Source: Antedon bifida (lineage: Eukaryota; Echinodermata; Crinoidea; Comatulida; Antedonidae). Taken from it: a stretch of 64,000 bases of DNA. Location: assembly GCA_963402885.1 (NCBI GenBank), contig OY727102.1:1674001-1738000 (forward strand), given 5' to 3'. Positions 12,501 through 51,500 of this stretch are shown here, piece after piece; within the stretch, counting starts at the first letter, position 1; every line of letters starts with the position of its first letter. Both the position numbers and the translations under genes were made by a program. The notes under the pieces were generated by a model, which was not told where the DNA came from, searched no databases, and saw only the letters and a program-made list of their open reading frames with translations.

Positions 12501-15500
12501 GTAACTAAAAAACAAAAGTTCATTCAATTTTTTCTGAAGTTTAGATTCACCATATTTCGATTAATATGGTGTCAGTTAGCGATTTAAAGTTTTTTTGCCT
12601 TGCTTGCCGGACCTGGATAACCAGACAATAGCCCAATAGACAAAACATTTACAAAAAGAGGAAATTCTGTTAAGCAACCCTATCGGTTATAATGGTAGTA
12701 ATCCGTGAAATCTTGCAATATATTGTCTTAAACTAACGTTAATTGATGTTAATTGACAATTGTGATTATCTCACATCATGTTTGTGTTTAAGAGAATACA
12801 TTAGAGGATAAATGTGTGAACATTGTTTCTATGTTATTGCCACTGATAAGTTTATTAATCAATATAGAAGCTATGATTTAGGATTGTCCTAGTTTCTGAA
12901 ATTGAAATTCATTATTCAATAAAACATCAGCATTTCCCAGGGCAGAAACTTTATTAAGAAAGAGGTGAGTGATTGCTCACTAACATCATAAAAACTTGAA
13001 TTTCAAAACTCTTGACCTCTGACATGTAATGTCACAAAAGGTGAGAACACAGATGATAGACTTGTTTTAGGATCCCATAGGGTTGGTTATCAACAATAAT
13101 GGTTTACTTGAGGTACAGTAAACAGGACACTATTTGAATACTATATTTGATGTAATTTAATTCTAAAAAAATCCCCACATTTTGTTATATTTATGTAAAA
13201 GCTACTGCTGTAATACTTGTATTGATAATCTAAAGCTCTGTCTACACTATCAAACCTTATGTGACAACAAAATGTGATGTGCCTATATATGGACAAGATG
13301 ACATCATATCACTACCTTGTTTGAGCATATCACTGGGTACATCACACTAGTTTGATAGTGTAGACAGAGCTTTAATTATTAATTTTTACTCTTTACTGGA
13401 TTCTGACAATTTATAGTATGCACATTCATATGGGATTGACAGTAGTAATATTTTGATATATTTCACAATCACATCAGGTATAAAAATGTATGAATTATTA
13501 TTATACAGTGGATTTTGTGTTTGTTTAATACTAGAAAACATCACATTTACTGAATATGTTACTTGAAACCAATATTTTTATTGTTAATAATTATATGATT
13601 ACTCTAATTAATTGTATCTTAATGAAATGCAGTCGTAGGTCTGCAATCCATCTGTTTGATGTGGTCTCTTGCAGGAGTTTAGCTGACATAACAGCAGGTA
13701 TCCTAGGCTGTGTACATTGTACCGAGTCATGGCCAACTACCAACCATTTCAGTAGGCGAAACAGAAACAATATATTTTGGTCTCCCTAAGTGTTCATATG
13801 GCTTTTCTCTAGAAAAGTAATCAGATGTTTTGATATGGTTTGTCATATACTTTAAATTACTCCAAACACGCAACCAAATTAAAGTACGAATTAAGTTTAA
13901 TATAAAACCTTCCCTTATGTTGAAGATTTATATTTTAACTCAAGACAATGGAGTTATGCTTTCGTATCGCAAGCAATGTCATATTATAATTAGCGTCGTA
14001 ACAGAAAAGTGTTCAGATTCGCCTAACTAATCTTGTACCTTGAGCTGTCGTAACGAACAAAAGATCAGTGTCGTACGAAGTGGCTTCCACTAATCTTTTC
14101 CTGGTTCAGACCTATGGAGTTGTACGCTGCGTACAATACAAAAGCATAACTCCGTAGGTCTGAACAGACCCTTGGTGAAGTTATTGGCATACTGTACAGT
14201 AGACCTATCATTAATATTCACTTGCAGCTGACCGAACTATAAAATATTTTGAAGAAGCTCCCCATACTAATTATTAACACAGTTTATCCAGATCCCTGTA
14301 CTAATAATTAATTGAGGCCCTTATAGTCAGGCAGCATTTGTATTTTACTTCATATATTTAGCCAAGTTTGATTTTTCACTTTTAAGTGATCAAGGACATC
14401 ACAACGAACAACTTCCAACTTGTTGTCCAAATTCTAAACGCGTTTTTCATTCGCTGGGGGCGCTTTTTCAAAATGGCCGCTTATGTTATCAAGTACTTAT
14501 ATCTCAGCAACCACTAATCGTAGAGACTTGGTTTTAATCTTAAAATGTTCGTAAGGTAGATATTTCTATTTACTCTAATGGAACATTTTGACCAGAAATG
14601 ACTGGAAATGTCATTTCTGACCATTTGACCTTTGACCTTCTATCATCATATCTCGGTAACTAATGGTCACACAGACTTAAAAATTGTTTCAAATTGTTCG
14701 CAGTATGCCTTTTTATATTTACTGTAATTAAATGTTTTGTTTTAAAGCAAACAGAAATGCCATATCTGACCTCTTGCCCTAATGCATGTAATATCCACAA
14801 CTGAGAAACTATAGATTTGTCTAGTATTGTTTATAACTTGTACCGGTACTTGTGGTTTTGTTGATGATATCCCTTGTTCCAAAATCAATATTTCAAATCA
14901 CCAATGGAACTGTTATAATAAATAAGTACATACCATAAATATTGATGATAGTCAGATTACCCTCTCCAGTAAATAAAGTTCAGCTCTACATTTGTGTCCT
15001 TTGTATTCTCACATCCATCACCACACTCACATGCATCAGTACAGAGCAAGTTGTTTTTCTTACAACTGCAGCGATTTGTTGAGCATGAACCATTGCAGGT
15101 ACATCAACGAATTTCTAGAAGAGCTTCTGGTGCTGGTGGATTGTTGCAAAATACCGGCCTCAAGTGACCATCTTCTCGTTGCCAGGAGTAGTCAGTTGCT
15201 GGTGGAATAGATAGAGTTGGCTTGCATGATGAATTCCATACAATAGACATGTAGTATGCTCTTTCCACGTGTGGTCTAAGAGTTCCTATGGTTGGAGGTA
15301 ATTGTTGTCCTTCCTTGCCTTTCTGTGCAAATAACATCCATCTCAAGTCTGTGACATAAATCTGCCTTGATCTTAGAAGTACTGATAATATGCAAACATA
15401 TCTTTCCATTTGCCTGAAAATCCAATTTGGTATTTCAGAGGTCAGTCCATATACAGCAAATGCATCTAGTATTTCATCGTCACATTTCATAAGTGCTTTG

Positions 15501-18500
15501 AAATGGGCGGACACTCCTTTTCCAGCAAATGTACCCGTGTTATCTGTACCTTTAAATGCGTACCATCCAATCAGTGCTGCTGATATTTGTTTTCCAAGTC
15601 GGTAATAGCATTCCCATATAGGTATTTTTTCCCCTCTTTTCCTACAAAATGTGGTCATTGGAGGAAGTAGAGGATAGCTTCCTGTTAAAAGGATAAAGAC
15701 ATCAGTATCTACAGAAAATATGTCAACATTGGCACTTGGGTCTTTGTTCATACAATCAAAGGCATTCAATAAGACCAGTTGGTCCCCTTCTTCCAATGTG
15801 TGTTGTCCGTGTGTCATCTCTGGCATCATGATAATTTCTGAGAGATTGCAGTTTGCCATCATGGACGTGTGATGTGTTACTAGGACCTTCTTCGTGTTGT
15901 TCTTGAAGTGATTAAGTATCTTCTCTGACAGGTATTTTGTAAGTTCAGCTTTGTTCTCTATGTGCGATAAAAATGTCTTAATGTTCTTAATCTCAGTGTT
16001 GTCATTGACATGGTAGTGAATGGTAGTTGTTTTCTGTGTTCTCTTATCTCGTGTAGATTCTTTTAAAGATCCTGATAGATATTGATCAAATAAAAGACGA
16101 ACTTCATCATATGGTTTGCTCATACCAACAATCAGGTTAACAAATTCAGATGCAAAGTCAGAAGCATTGAACTTATCGGACACCTTCTTTACCATATTGA
16201 CGACACACATTCCATCAATAATTAGGATTGATGCTGCTTTTGTATCATCTTTCTGTACAGGCCTGCTGACATTATCTGGTAGAGGGAGTTCTGTTATTGA
16301 CTGCAATACCTTGGATTTTCCAGAAAGCATTATCATTCTTCCATCTGGATGGAAATTTGATGGTGGAGTGCTATTGAACTATGACATCCTTTAGAGCGAA
16401 CTCTGGCCTGCTCTTCGCCACAACTAACAATCTAGACAGCAGCTTTCTCTTTTGCTAGTTGACCTTTAATTTTGGTTTTCACCACTGCTCCTACATCCTT
16501 GAAATACGAGAAGTTGTTTTTCTTTTGAGGGTCCCAAAATTTTACGGTTTTTCAACCATTCGTGAAATTTATCCAATGCTTCTTTTCCTAATTGGTCTCG
16601 CTTTTCATTCGTTTGACTGAAATCATCGGATGTTACCACAAAACACTTACCATTTAAACTCATGAAATCTAATCTGCTTGAACTTTCAGCCAATTACAGG
16701 CTAGGATTATGTATGGAGATAATGAGTGGCTCTTATTTATTTTAAAACTTTAATTTCCAAGCTTAAGTGAATTTTTTAAAGCATCAATAATTGAAAAATC
16801 AATAATGTGTTACAAATATGGATGTTCTGAGCAATCTGTCGAAAAATGTTATCTATAACCAACATGTTGTGGATATCACACAGGTTATGGTCAAAGGTCA
16901 GATATGGTTTTTCCGGCCATTTTGAAACAAACCTTTGCATTAAAGCAAATAGAAACATGTATTTTCTGAACAATTTGGGATAAATATCAACTCTTTCTGA
17001 CCAATAGTTATTGAGATATGATAAGATCAGGTCAAAGGTCAAATGGTCAGAAATAGTATTTCCGGTAATTTTAGGGCAAAATGTTCCATTATAGTGAATA
17101 GAATTATGTACCTTACGAACATTTTAAGACTAAAACCAAGTCTCTACGATTAGTGGTTGCTGAGATATAAGTACTTGATAACATAAGCGGCCATTTTGAA
17201 AAAGCGCCCCCAGCGAATGAAAAACGCGTTTAGAATTTGGACAACAAGTTGGAAGTTGTTCGTTGTGATGTCCTTGATCACTTAAAAGTGAAAAATCAAA
17301 CTTGGCTAAATATATGAAGTAAAGTTAATATAGTGACAAATGCTGCCTGACTATTAATTCAGAATGTTTTTTCTAGGTCACTTAAGATTCCTGTAGATGT
17401 TGACACAACCTTTCCATGAATACCTTTTAAACTTTCTTACTGCTGATGGTACAAATCATCAGCGATTTTACTTTTCATTAGCTGTGTTTACACATTCTTG
17501 TTGTCTCTATTAGAGTTAAATTGTGTTCTGTCAGAGTTACTTGTTCTGCATCAAATGCAAACAAATCAATTACATCTGATATCCCCCTGATGGGGATTGT
17601 TTTTACAGTCTGAAACTTATTGGTTTTCTGTTTCCAAAAACAGAATGAAGTAAAAGTTGATAATGACTCAATGTTTGCTACAACCGTCTTCTTGACTAAT
17701 GCTAGGCATCTGTAAAACTTCCATACCCAGTTTTTTTTTCACAGATCTTTGTTGGCTGGATGCGAATATAATGGAGCTTATCAAGTAATTGCATACTTTG
17801 TTGACTGCAGTCAAAAAAGTGGTTAATTATTTTATTACACTTTGATGGATGTAGCCTATGATGAATTGAACAAACATGTAATATTGACAACATCATCACA
17901 ACTGACAAGTACTTATTTACATTGCATCAAGTACCTCTATTATAGTTTGAGTCTTGTGTACACTGTTAAGTTTGCATACTTTTTAAGTATTAAGTTATAA
18001 AGGTGTAAACTTGGTTTAAATGTGTAATTTTCAGGTGTGGTACGAACACATGTTATTTAATTTGATTGCAATTACTTGTTTATAAAAAGCTTTAAGTGAA
18101 TTATTATGATATTAGATTTGAAGTGTTTGCTTGATGTACTTTGGTTATGAAGACCTTCTGGTCCAGGGTTCAATTCTGGTCTGTTCAAAAAATTACAGGG
18201 TTATAGGATAGTATTGATGTAAACATTCAGGTGTTCATGATCAAATTACTGAGAATTCAAAGCTGAAACAGTGTTGATCAGTAGTCTTCAGGGGAAATGT
18301 TGGTTTGATGTTTCTCATTATTTTGTTGAAATTATTGATTTACTTGAATTTTATTATGTGAACTATGTAGAGGAACAAGTAGTTTATTGCTAATTTAATA
18401 TCCAAGATGTTTAATGTGGAATACATCAAACCAACATTTAGCAACCTCCATCTAACCCTTCTACCCTTTGCCTTGCTTGTGTCAGAGGAAGGTCATAATT

Positions 18501-48500: not shown

Positions 48501-51500
48501 ATGCACACTTGCTGATGATAGACAACTCAGCTGTACAGATTGTGACCCTCGCTATACCGGCAGGTATTGTCATAGGTAAGTCATCTTGTTTTCTTATGGT
48601 TTATGAAGATTATTTCTTTTTATGGGTATTATTTCTTTATTTTTTAAAAGATGTCCATAATATTTAAACACTACACTAATACTATACTATTCATACAGTA
48701 CAGATACAATCTATCAATAAACTACTGTACATTGAAAAGTGTCTATATCTCTAATTCCCTATGAAATGGACCATTACATTATGCCTCATTTATTTAACAG
48801 GTGTGCTGACGGTTACTATGGTGACCCGACTACCGGAACAGGCAGGTGTTTCCCATGTGAATGTGACAAACTTGGTTCAGTCTCTAACACATGTGATAAG
48901 GTCACAGGTCATTGCACATGCTTAGCGGGTGTCATGGGACGATTATGTGATCAGTGTGAGCTGCTGTACGGCCTTGAAGAGGGAGGATGTGTTTGTAAGT
49001 GTACCAATCTTGTTTATTCTCATAACATTATGTCAAAATGTTGTTTAATTTATTTTAATTTGCATTTAACAATGGAGAACCCATACAGGAAGGAATACAT
49101 AAAACAATGATTAAATTACAACCTGCAAAATAAATCCTTTTTTAAGAGTAAATAGAAAATAAAATATTCAGAAGAATACTTATTTTAAACGAAATAATCA
49201 TGGTTTTTAGATGAACACATATATTATAATTCTTTTATATGTTTTACAATTTGTAACTTGTACTTTTTAGCTTGCTATAACAACAACTGTACTGGAAGAC
49301 TATTGGATATGATAGACTCCTTGCAGACACCTAATTTTAACTTGAAAGTGACAGCTGTTGCACCATGGCCTACTCTTGCAAAACTTGAAAATGAAACTAT
49401 AGAATTAAAGGTATGGATGAGAAAAAAATAATCTCCAATAACGATTTTTTTTTATTGATGATGCTTTCAAATGATATTGATATTGATTAAAATCTTATAC
49501 TATCTTCTGCAATGAGTAAAAGCGGTCAAATGTAAGAATGAATTGTCAGGAAAGATTGGTGCACCTTTTAGGCATCATGTGTATTTACAATAATGTTGGT
49601 GATCATTCCACTGCCCTTATAACCTTGGTACTACTGGACATATGATTAAAATGCAATAACTTTATTTTCTTAGCAAAAGTATGAAGCGGCAAAAGCAACA
49701 AAACCTATTGAAGTACGACAATTAGACAAGCAATTAAAAGACCTGAAGAAGCAAGCAAAACGACAAGAGAGAGAAGTAAGTTAAATTTTAGTGCTTCAAG
49801 CCTTTGCATTTTAAATAAGGTAAAATAAAGTTCCAGGAAAAATTCAGCTAAATCTATGATTATTGATATTCTAGTCTGTTAATCTTAAGAGGAGTGCCAA
49901 GGATTTCAGTGGAAATGCAAATGAAACAAGGCAAAGTGCTGTAACTTTGGAGAATTATATTAACAGCCTTTCCAGATTGGTCCAAGGTAAATGATAATCT
50001 TTTAGATACTAGAACATTTTGTGCAAGGTTTCTATTATGAAATATATGAAAGAGGATAAATATTTTGTTCTTAGTATATAATACAAACAAAGCTATACTG
50101 GTATTGGGTGCAGGTATATATTGATAAGACCTAACTACACTACAAGTGCTTACAAGCCAGCCAAGAAGATTCATTCCGCCACCAGAAATATGGAAGAAGA
50201 GAGCCTTCAACCTTTTACTGATTGAATGGCTGTTGATCTCAGTGTCCTGCTTTCACCACCTGATCATTCTTTCTAATTTAAATTATTATCCAATTGATTC
50301 CTCTGGATAACATGTGTGAACATATCTGACATTTCCTGCTGAATTTCTTTAAAATAAGAAATTTAATTAACTATTCATTTGTATTTTTTTTTTCAACAGA
50401 TACTATAGAATATGTGAGGAACCAAATTGAAAACTTTGCAACAAAACCTGTCCTAGAAAGTCAACTAATTATAGATGAAGCTAAAAGAATCATAGCAGAA
50501 ATTGAGGCCAAAGATTTTAGTAACCAAGAGTTATTGTCTGATCAGGAACTAGCGTAAGTTACACTAAAGTAAATTCAGAAAAGTCAAATCGTGGCTTTGA
50601 ACATTTTTTTCTGATATCGCTAAAAAGATACTATTGTAAAGTTTGGTTTGTAGTACATGTATTTCCAAAAGGAAATACATGCAAAGTAAAGTTGATAATG
50701 TCTCTACATTTTACTGTTACATACAGTATTACATCCATCTTTTGAAGATTCTCTTACCATCTTTACCAATTTTTGACTCATCTGTTGATGTAGTATGCTT
50801 TTTATTGTTAAGGTTGAGTCAGGATGTGTTGAGAAGAGCCCAAGAATTACTGGACCTAAGTGCTGATGACCTAAATACACTAATAATGTCCATCCTGCAA
50901 AGTATCAATGACGTCAACAACAAGTATGTTGAGATTATTGATTGGAGTACGCAAGCAAACAATGCATCTGAATCAGCTCATCTGCTCAATCTAAGAAGTT
51001 TAGCAAATAAACAACAAGTTGAGGTAAGACACAAATAAACAGAAGGGATTGTTTTCATTACTTTTGTGAGTGTACCAATTTTCAAGAAATAGAAACACAA
51101 AGAAAGAAGAATGTTTAACCAAGAGAGTACCTACCTGGATTGACATTGAATTTGGTCGTATTTTCTTGCATAGTGGGGCTTGGAGCTAATAACGTGCTGA
51201 TAGAAAGTAGCTAATTGCCCCAGATTGCTAGTTAATTTTGTTTTCCTATTCCGGCATAATTGTACAGTACAACACTTTGCTAAATATTACTATTAGATTA
51301 GGGCGAAACGACCATACACACAATTATAATAAAATCGTTGCATCATCATTACTTTTAATGCCTCACTATCATGCTGATCAATCCCCACTACTATAATTTA
51401 ATGTTTATTATTATTTATTATAGATACACACTCAATCTGCTAAAATCTTGGCAAAAGATGCTGAGAAGAATTTGAGAGATGCTCAGGGATTGTTAGTAGA

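Follow-up and report, generated by a model that had tools for sequence, protein, structure and literature searches.

Within a 64,000-nucleotide stretch of the Antedon bifida genome (G000:C15:1674001-1738000, here called the window), we examined a compact DNA transposon whose gene encodes a protein with FEN/XPG-type motifs. A first-pass annotation, made from the sequence alone, had described a 3-kb element with long inverted ends and one gene, and this description stands. The element spans 14324-17353 (3030 bp) with TTA on both flanks, and its terminal inverted repeats (TIRs) of 478 and 488 bp are identical in 416 of 488 columns (85%; E 2e-163). Its sole long reading frame lies on the minus strand and encodes 410 aa; the length of this open reading frame (ORF) exceeds chance, the longest ORF over 500 dinucleotide shuffles of the element being 165 aa. 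The terminal sequence of the window-type element is TAGTCAGGCAGC, and self-comparison of the ends finds degenerate repeats in each of them, at a spacing of ~149 bp. The features of the element, including the target-site duplication (TSD) on either side, are as follows, in window coordinates.

14321..14323, no strand: left TSD, TTA; from the sequence and from sister copies with 3-bp TSDs.
14324..14801, plus strand: left TIR, beginning TAGTCAGGCAGCATTTGT and lying beyond the 3' end of the gene; from the match to the right end and from copies across the genome.
14499..14780, plus strand: two degenerate subterminal repeat units (14499-14631 and 14648-14780), 149 bp apart and 63% alike; from self-comparison of the end.
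14997..15103, minus strand: nine-cysteine CXC-like module in the frame of the ORF, after a TGA stop; from translation and a sub-threshold TCR/CXC profile match, the module being joined to the ORF in L031 and L035.
15104..16336, minus strand: 410-aa ORF, putative FEN/XPG-like C-terminal half of a transposase, with conserved D41, D84, E182, E183, D185, D210, D212 and D265.
16337..16639, minus strand: frameshifted remnant of the linker between a DDE-like core and the FEN-like domain; from translations, homology of sister copies to the proteins P0001 and P0002, and alignment.
16639..16649, no strand: internal-deletion breakpoint, with TAAGTGTTTT at 16640-16649, beyond which the Cys/His-rich and DDE-like half is gone; from an alignment of 14 copies.
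16866..17353, minus strand: right TIR, ahead of the 5' end of the gene; from the match to the left end.
17354..17356, no strand: right TSD, TTA; from the sequence.

The four motifs on which attention had first settled, ILIIDGM, EEGDQ, VDTDV and GTDNTG...GKG, are present in the ORF, and their acidic residues are kept in relatives. The nine-cysteine module had been assigned to the same protein; here an in-frame TGA (15104-15106) precedes it, and module and ORF are joined in the sister copies L031 and L035. The gene had also been taken as potentially complete, which it is not: compared with full-length relatives, ~940 residues (numbered as in P0002) to ~1080 (as in P0001) are missing from its start, and its upstream linker is frameshifted. 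The first-pass annotation had seen no classical DDE transposase in the element. A tblastn search of all 64 kb with the DDE parts of five relatives (E <= 0.01) found none, and among the 20 further stretches compared below the only DDE-like sequence at this threshold lay in an element nested in L032.

To find further copies, we searched the genome (315.6 Mb in 27 contigs) with the TIR and with the 410-aa protein, as had been proposed, and both gave many matches. The left end returned at least 40 scored matches, from 821 first-look candidates, and the protein at least 108, many of them broken pieces. We compared 20 stretches; L032 and L033 together make up one copy, and L049 and L050 belong to other families. 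Matching 3-bp flanks were found in 15 of 16 two-ended copies (15 sisters plus the window), the exception being L040; this count leaves aside L045, which has no right terminus, L048, with one degraded end, and L049 and L050, with one end each at ~74% identity. Two copies, L042 and L044, have common flanking sequence and are possibly one insertion event. The TSDs read TAC, ATA, TTA, TTT, TAA, GTA, TTC, GAA and TGA. The TTA duplication predicted for the window element is thus present, but the varied sequences among copies indicate a target duplication of 3 bp that is not specific to TTA. Harbinger elements usually duplicate TTA or TWA, and a PIF/Harbinger-type restriction of this kind was not found among these TSDs.

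Several copies are rearranged. L039, L041 and L032+L033 are fold-back derivatives, in which the left half is present as two head-to-head copies between matching 3-bp TSDs, and the fold-back form is a recurrent rearrangement product. We considered two copies, L031 and L032+L033, as the full-length parent and rejected both. The additional 3.5 kb of L031 (6.5 kb) is a nested element in which tblastn finds no DDE part; this insertion (L031:2874-6376, on G000:C10; 3503 bp) has ends of its own (GGCTGGTATTCATGAAAGGGGACTA; GGCTGGTATTCATGAAAG...) with a TTA duplication, and adjoins the deletion junction of its host copy. L032+L033 (8.7 kb), one of the fold-back derivatives, holds a nested element of a related kind, and a DDE-like end fragment is encoded upstream of the FEN-like part of this nested element. 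Dating of the window insertion by its TIRs was likewise rejected. Only 3 sites differ in the outer 236 aligned bases and 59 in the inner 242, and since the left end also matches the right ends of sister copies at no more than ~74-85% over its length (89% in L045, for a piece of 352 columns), the inner difference predates the insertion.

An alignment of 14 sequences in gene sense revealed a single deletion junction common to nine of them (the window, L031, L034, L035, L036, L038, L043, L045 and L046), which lie at different sites. For L031, the far side of the junction was seen separately, beyond its nested insertion. The breakpoint falls directly after TAAGTGTTTT, the last stretch held in common with those copies in which the parental 5' side survives. 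The remaining five (L037, L040, L042, L044 and L047) continue otherwise past this point, for ~135-180 bp in four and for 816 bp in L047. This last copy has the same ends and encodes a Cys/His-rich N-terminal piece with 34% identity to residues 75-163 of the full-length relative P0001 (E 2e-10). One junction in nine copies at different sites means that the short form itself moved repeatedly. Pairwise differences in the ORF region are 0.6-2.0% among seven of the nine, with the other two at 1.2 and 1.3% from the window, and this low divergence indicates a recent spread. A direct repeat flanking the deletion was proposed and then dropped: of the parental sequence only the TAAGTGTTTT side is available, and a second copy of this stretch is not shown.

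Searching the genome with the L047 stretch gave seven matches, namely L047 itself, the first ~140 bp of four other copies, a 34-bp piece in L040 and a 91-bp piece on C11. The last of these (G000:C11:13487043-13487133), 76% identical to the N-terminal coding piece of L047, may derive from a parental or sister element. At the right end of the window element, positions 16640-16663 read ATGAGTTTAAATGGTAAGTG in gene sense, and a TTTTCAG follows ~400 bp later in L047 (L047:994-1398); the two possibly mark a 5' exon and an intron that belonged to the gene of the lost parent.

Full-length relatives occur in the same genome. A search with the DDE-like part of one relative gave at least 94 matches, again with many broken pieces, and at ten loci the DDE-part and FEN-part matches both report an open frame of equal length without stops. 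Five of these loci were read, each as one frame: L063 (1616 aa), L064 (1524 aa), L065 (1700 aa), L066 (1397 aa) and L067 (at least 977 aa, the frame running off the end of the stretch read). Their proteins, of ~1400-1700 aa, consist of a Cys/His-rich N-terminus, a DDE-like core, a FEN-like domain and a CXC tail; of the four relatives with the C-terminus in hand, three have this tail, and L066 stops short of it. Columns reading DNxD, H, D, GxxH and DxxxE are invariant in the N-terminal half (D516, D519, H532, D688, H717, D940 and E944 of P0001), and the acids of the window ORF recur in the C-terminal half. The element at L063 is complete, at 6145 bp, with termini that begin TAG (TAGTGTAGGC.../...GCCTACACTA) and the TSD ATG around its ORF. 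The 1397-aa open frame of L066 (C7:20481920) recurs with identical scores at C11:26452019 and C12:2353397, and these three loci suggest a recently active full-length Academ-like family. Two other weak Pfam matches, DUF1547 in L063 (E 0.003) and Alpha_kinase in P0002 (E 0.049), were taken as chance.

The likeness of the C-terminal half to FEN/XPG proteins is supported, though not proven, by its motifs and by a weak profile match above controls. The FEN-type acids and the GxD...GKG motif occur in order in the family (17 stretches from 16 loci), and each of D41, D84, E182, E183, D185, D210, D212, G263 and D265 is conserved with at most one exception among the sequences that span it. Compared by hhalign with 49 archaeal FEN1 proteins (from 53 loci), the profile of these stretches scored 34.0 (E 0.0017, probability 15.6%); the highest score among 50 column shuffles was 23.5, and the reversed profile scored 18.6. 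A seven-sequence alignment scored 30.0 (E 0.0055, probability 6.6%); 20 shuffles reached no more than 21.1, and the DDE part reached 17.4. The profile alignment is in register at GTD...GKG and the FEN1 GTD...GIG (GTDYNPGGIKGIG), with the upstream acids outside the aligned part; we take the archaeal stretch concerned to be the helix-two-turn-helix. For the cysteine module, the Tesmin/TSO1-like CXC family (PF03638) matched below its cut-off (E 0.13; 13 bits against 23.5) and was sub-threshold in five of seven sequences. A tblastn comparison with phages and plasmids gave one chance match (E 7), and scans of viral contigs gave no lead.

Taken together, these observations lead us to regard the window element as a non-autonomous element that belongs to an Academ-like family of DNA transposons and has undergone an internal deletion, with a probability of about 0.9. 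Its parent would have encoded one large transposase, in which a Cys/His-rich N-terminus resembling zinc fingers was followed by a DDE-like catalytic core, then by a FEN/XPG-like nuclease domain and finally by a CXC tail. The N-terminus and DDE core would have been lost in an internal deletion, one breakpoint of which lies just after TAAGTGTTTT, and the FEN-CXC half would have stayed behind between ends that are still intact. A transposase made elsewhere would then recognise these ends, cut the target with a 3-bp stagger and move the short form several times, the remaining ORF being a decaying passenger. Movement is thus most likely due to the enzyme of another element and not to a new mechanism. 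This was the fallback of the first-pass annotation, a non-autonomous Academ relative borrowing the transposase of a larger copy, and it is supported by the architecture of the relatives and the 3-bp TSDs.

We next consider whether the ORF matters to the short form. Among the nine junction copies, changes fall at the three codon positions in the ratio 14/25/17, with 14 silent and 42 replacement changes against an opportunity of 800:2890 (p 0.52). The silent:replacement counts are 35:101 with twelve copies (p 0.25) and 67:193 with thirteen (p 0.11), the thirteenth being L047, which is 14.8% different and probably badly aligned. Purifying selection on the FEN-CXC ORF was therefore rejected, as the counts are those expected without selection, and the changes look neutral. 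Frames remain open through the CXC module in two of the nine: L031 (502 aa) keeps all four motifs, and L035 (499 aa) has lost VDTDV. In the remaining seven, the window included, the ORF is stopped, shifted or shortened.

These data bear on two readings in which the short form uses its own protein. The first-pass annotation had put first a compact, self-sufficient transposon that moves by its FEN/XPG-CXC nuclease alone, and the failure to find DDE-like sequence in the window, the multiplication of the short form to nine copies with its junction, and the two long open frames all agree with it. This reading is nonetheless extremely improbable, given that the relatives have a DDE-like core fused upstream, that the short form bears a deletion junction and a frameshifted N-terminal linker, and that no constraint on the ORF is visible. 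Eight of the nine ORFs are stopped, shifted, shortened or without VDTDV (L031 excepted), and matching TSDs also flank copies in which the ORF is shorter still, for example L042 (1.7 kb). The apparent exception to known transposition routes is thereby removed, and no nuclease-only route is needed. In a two-part system, by comparison, the separate FEN-CXC protein would still serve as helper or regulator of larger elements. The persistence of two frames open through the CXC module speaks for it, and the absence of codon-position bias or of a significant silent excess among nine, twelve or thirteen copies against it; the missing VDTDV in L035, one of those two copies, lowers its odds slightly further, and we give it very little credence. 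That the short form makes a free FEN-CXC protein acting in trans on larger Academ-like elements, as a repressor or end-processing helper, is in our estimate very unlikely. If it did, nuclease and DDE functions would be separable parts of one transposition system.

Another possibility is that a non-autonomous element of an unrelated superfamily, such as Harbinger, captured a fragment of an Academ-like gene. The TTA at the window element would suit such an origin, as would the failure to find any copy with these TIRs and a DDE half. The TSDs of sister copies are not restricted to TWA, however, and in L063 the full protein is enclosed by ends that start with TAG and by a 3-bp TSD. Capture also leaves unexplained why L047, with the same ends, has retained the N-terminal piece of this very protein, and in the correct order, and we consider it very doubtful. 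An internally deleted Academ-like element remains our preferred reading, and several points weigh against it. Full-length relatives with a DDE transposase, which the first-pass annotation had named as refuting its nuclease-only reading, exist in fused form in related families, but no copy combining these exact TIRs with a DDE half was found. The N-terminal stretch of L047 occurs in full nowhere else in the genome, all six other matches being partial. On these two grounds, the parent of the window family is something that we infer, and the same holds for mobilisation in trans. The DDE assignment derives from conserved acids and from a DUF6589 (PF20231) match under the Pfam cut-off, seen in the DDE parts of two of five relatives (best E 1.5e-5; 24.3 bits against 27), and a PDB profile search with the DDE part returned nothing. 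The putative zinc fingers were read by eye, and for L063 and L065 the N-terminal part matched no Pfam family. For the FEN part, Pfam, PDB sequences, NCBIfam and PHROGs gave no FEN/XPG family, and the hhalign probability for that likeness is low, at 15.6%.

The motif CAA(A/G)ATG(G/A)CCGC occurs within the inverted ends of three related families. In the window it is found at 14469-14480 and 17187-17198, only in the two ends of this element, and elsewhere at L063:805, 969, 6498 and 6656 and at L032:3046; it is a possible binding site for transposase or a host factor. Just outside the element, a palindrome at window 14104-14165 has 18-bp arms that are 94% complementary. Farther away, exons at window 48739-51038 encode a laminin EGF domain (E 1.4e-10) and match laminin domain I weakly (E 0.0097).

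AcademX proteins fuse DDE and XPG domains, and invertebrates have an abundance of such fused proteins that end in a CXC tail. The several related families found here, with one-piece DDE-like/FEN-like and mostly CXC-tailed proteins and in some cases repeated copies with long open frames, are good material for studying the role of the FEN-like domain in Academ-type transposition. With FEN1, XPG and GEN1, the window protein shares the conserved acids and a GxD...FxGKG motif in register with the archaeal FEN1 stretch, but differs in having no family match at the sequence level; to our knowledge, a CXC tail and a DDE fusion are foreign to host FEN/XPG proteins. Likeness to DUF6589 is confined to the sub-cut-off match in the DDE-like half of two of five relatives, and Pfam assigns that family no function. 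In PMC10045372, AcademX TSDs are described as 3-4 bp and AcademH TSDs as 9-10 bp, seemingly tied to the encoded nuclease and helicase, respectively. AcademH is by name of the same superfamily as the present family; here the TSD is 3 bp and a nuclease-like domain stands in place of the helicase. AcademX is closer: the window element has 478/488-bp TIRs (85%), TSDs here are 3 bp (ATG in L063) against the 3 or 4 bp given in PMC10045372, and the full-length relatives fuse a DDE-like core to a FEN/XPG-like domain. Architecture and TSD length together fit Academ, of the nuclease-bearing AcademX type, which is known here by description and not by reference sequences. The window copy differs from AcademX in having lost the DDE half, which in its full-length relatives is recognised by conserved acids only, and for lack of that half we file it as a deletion derivative and not as a complete member of Academ.

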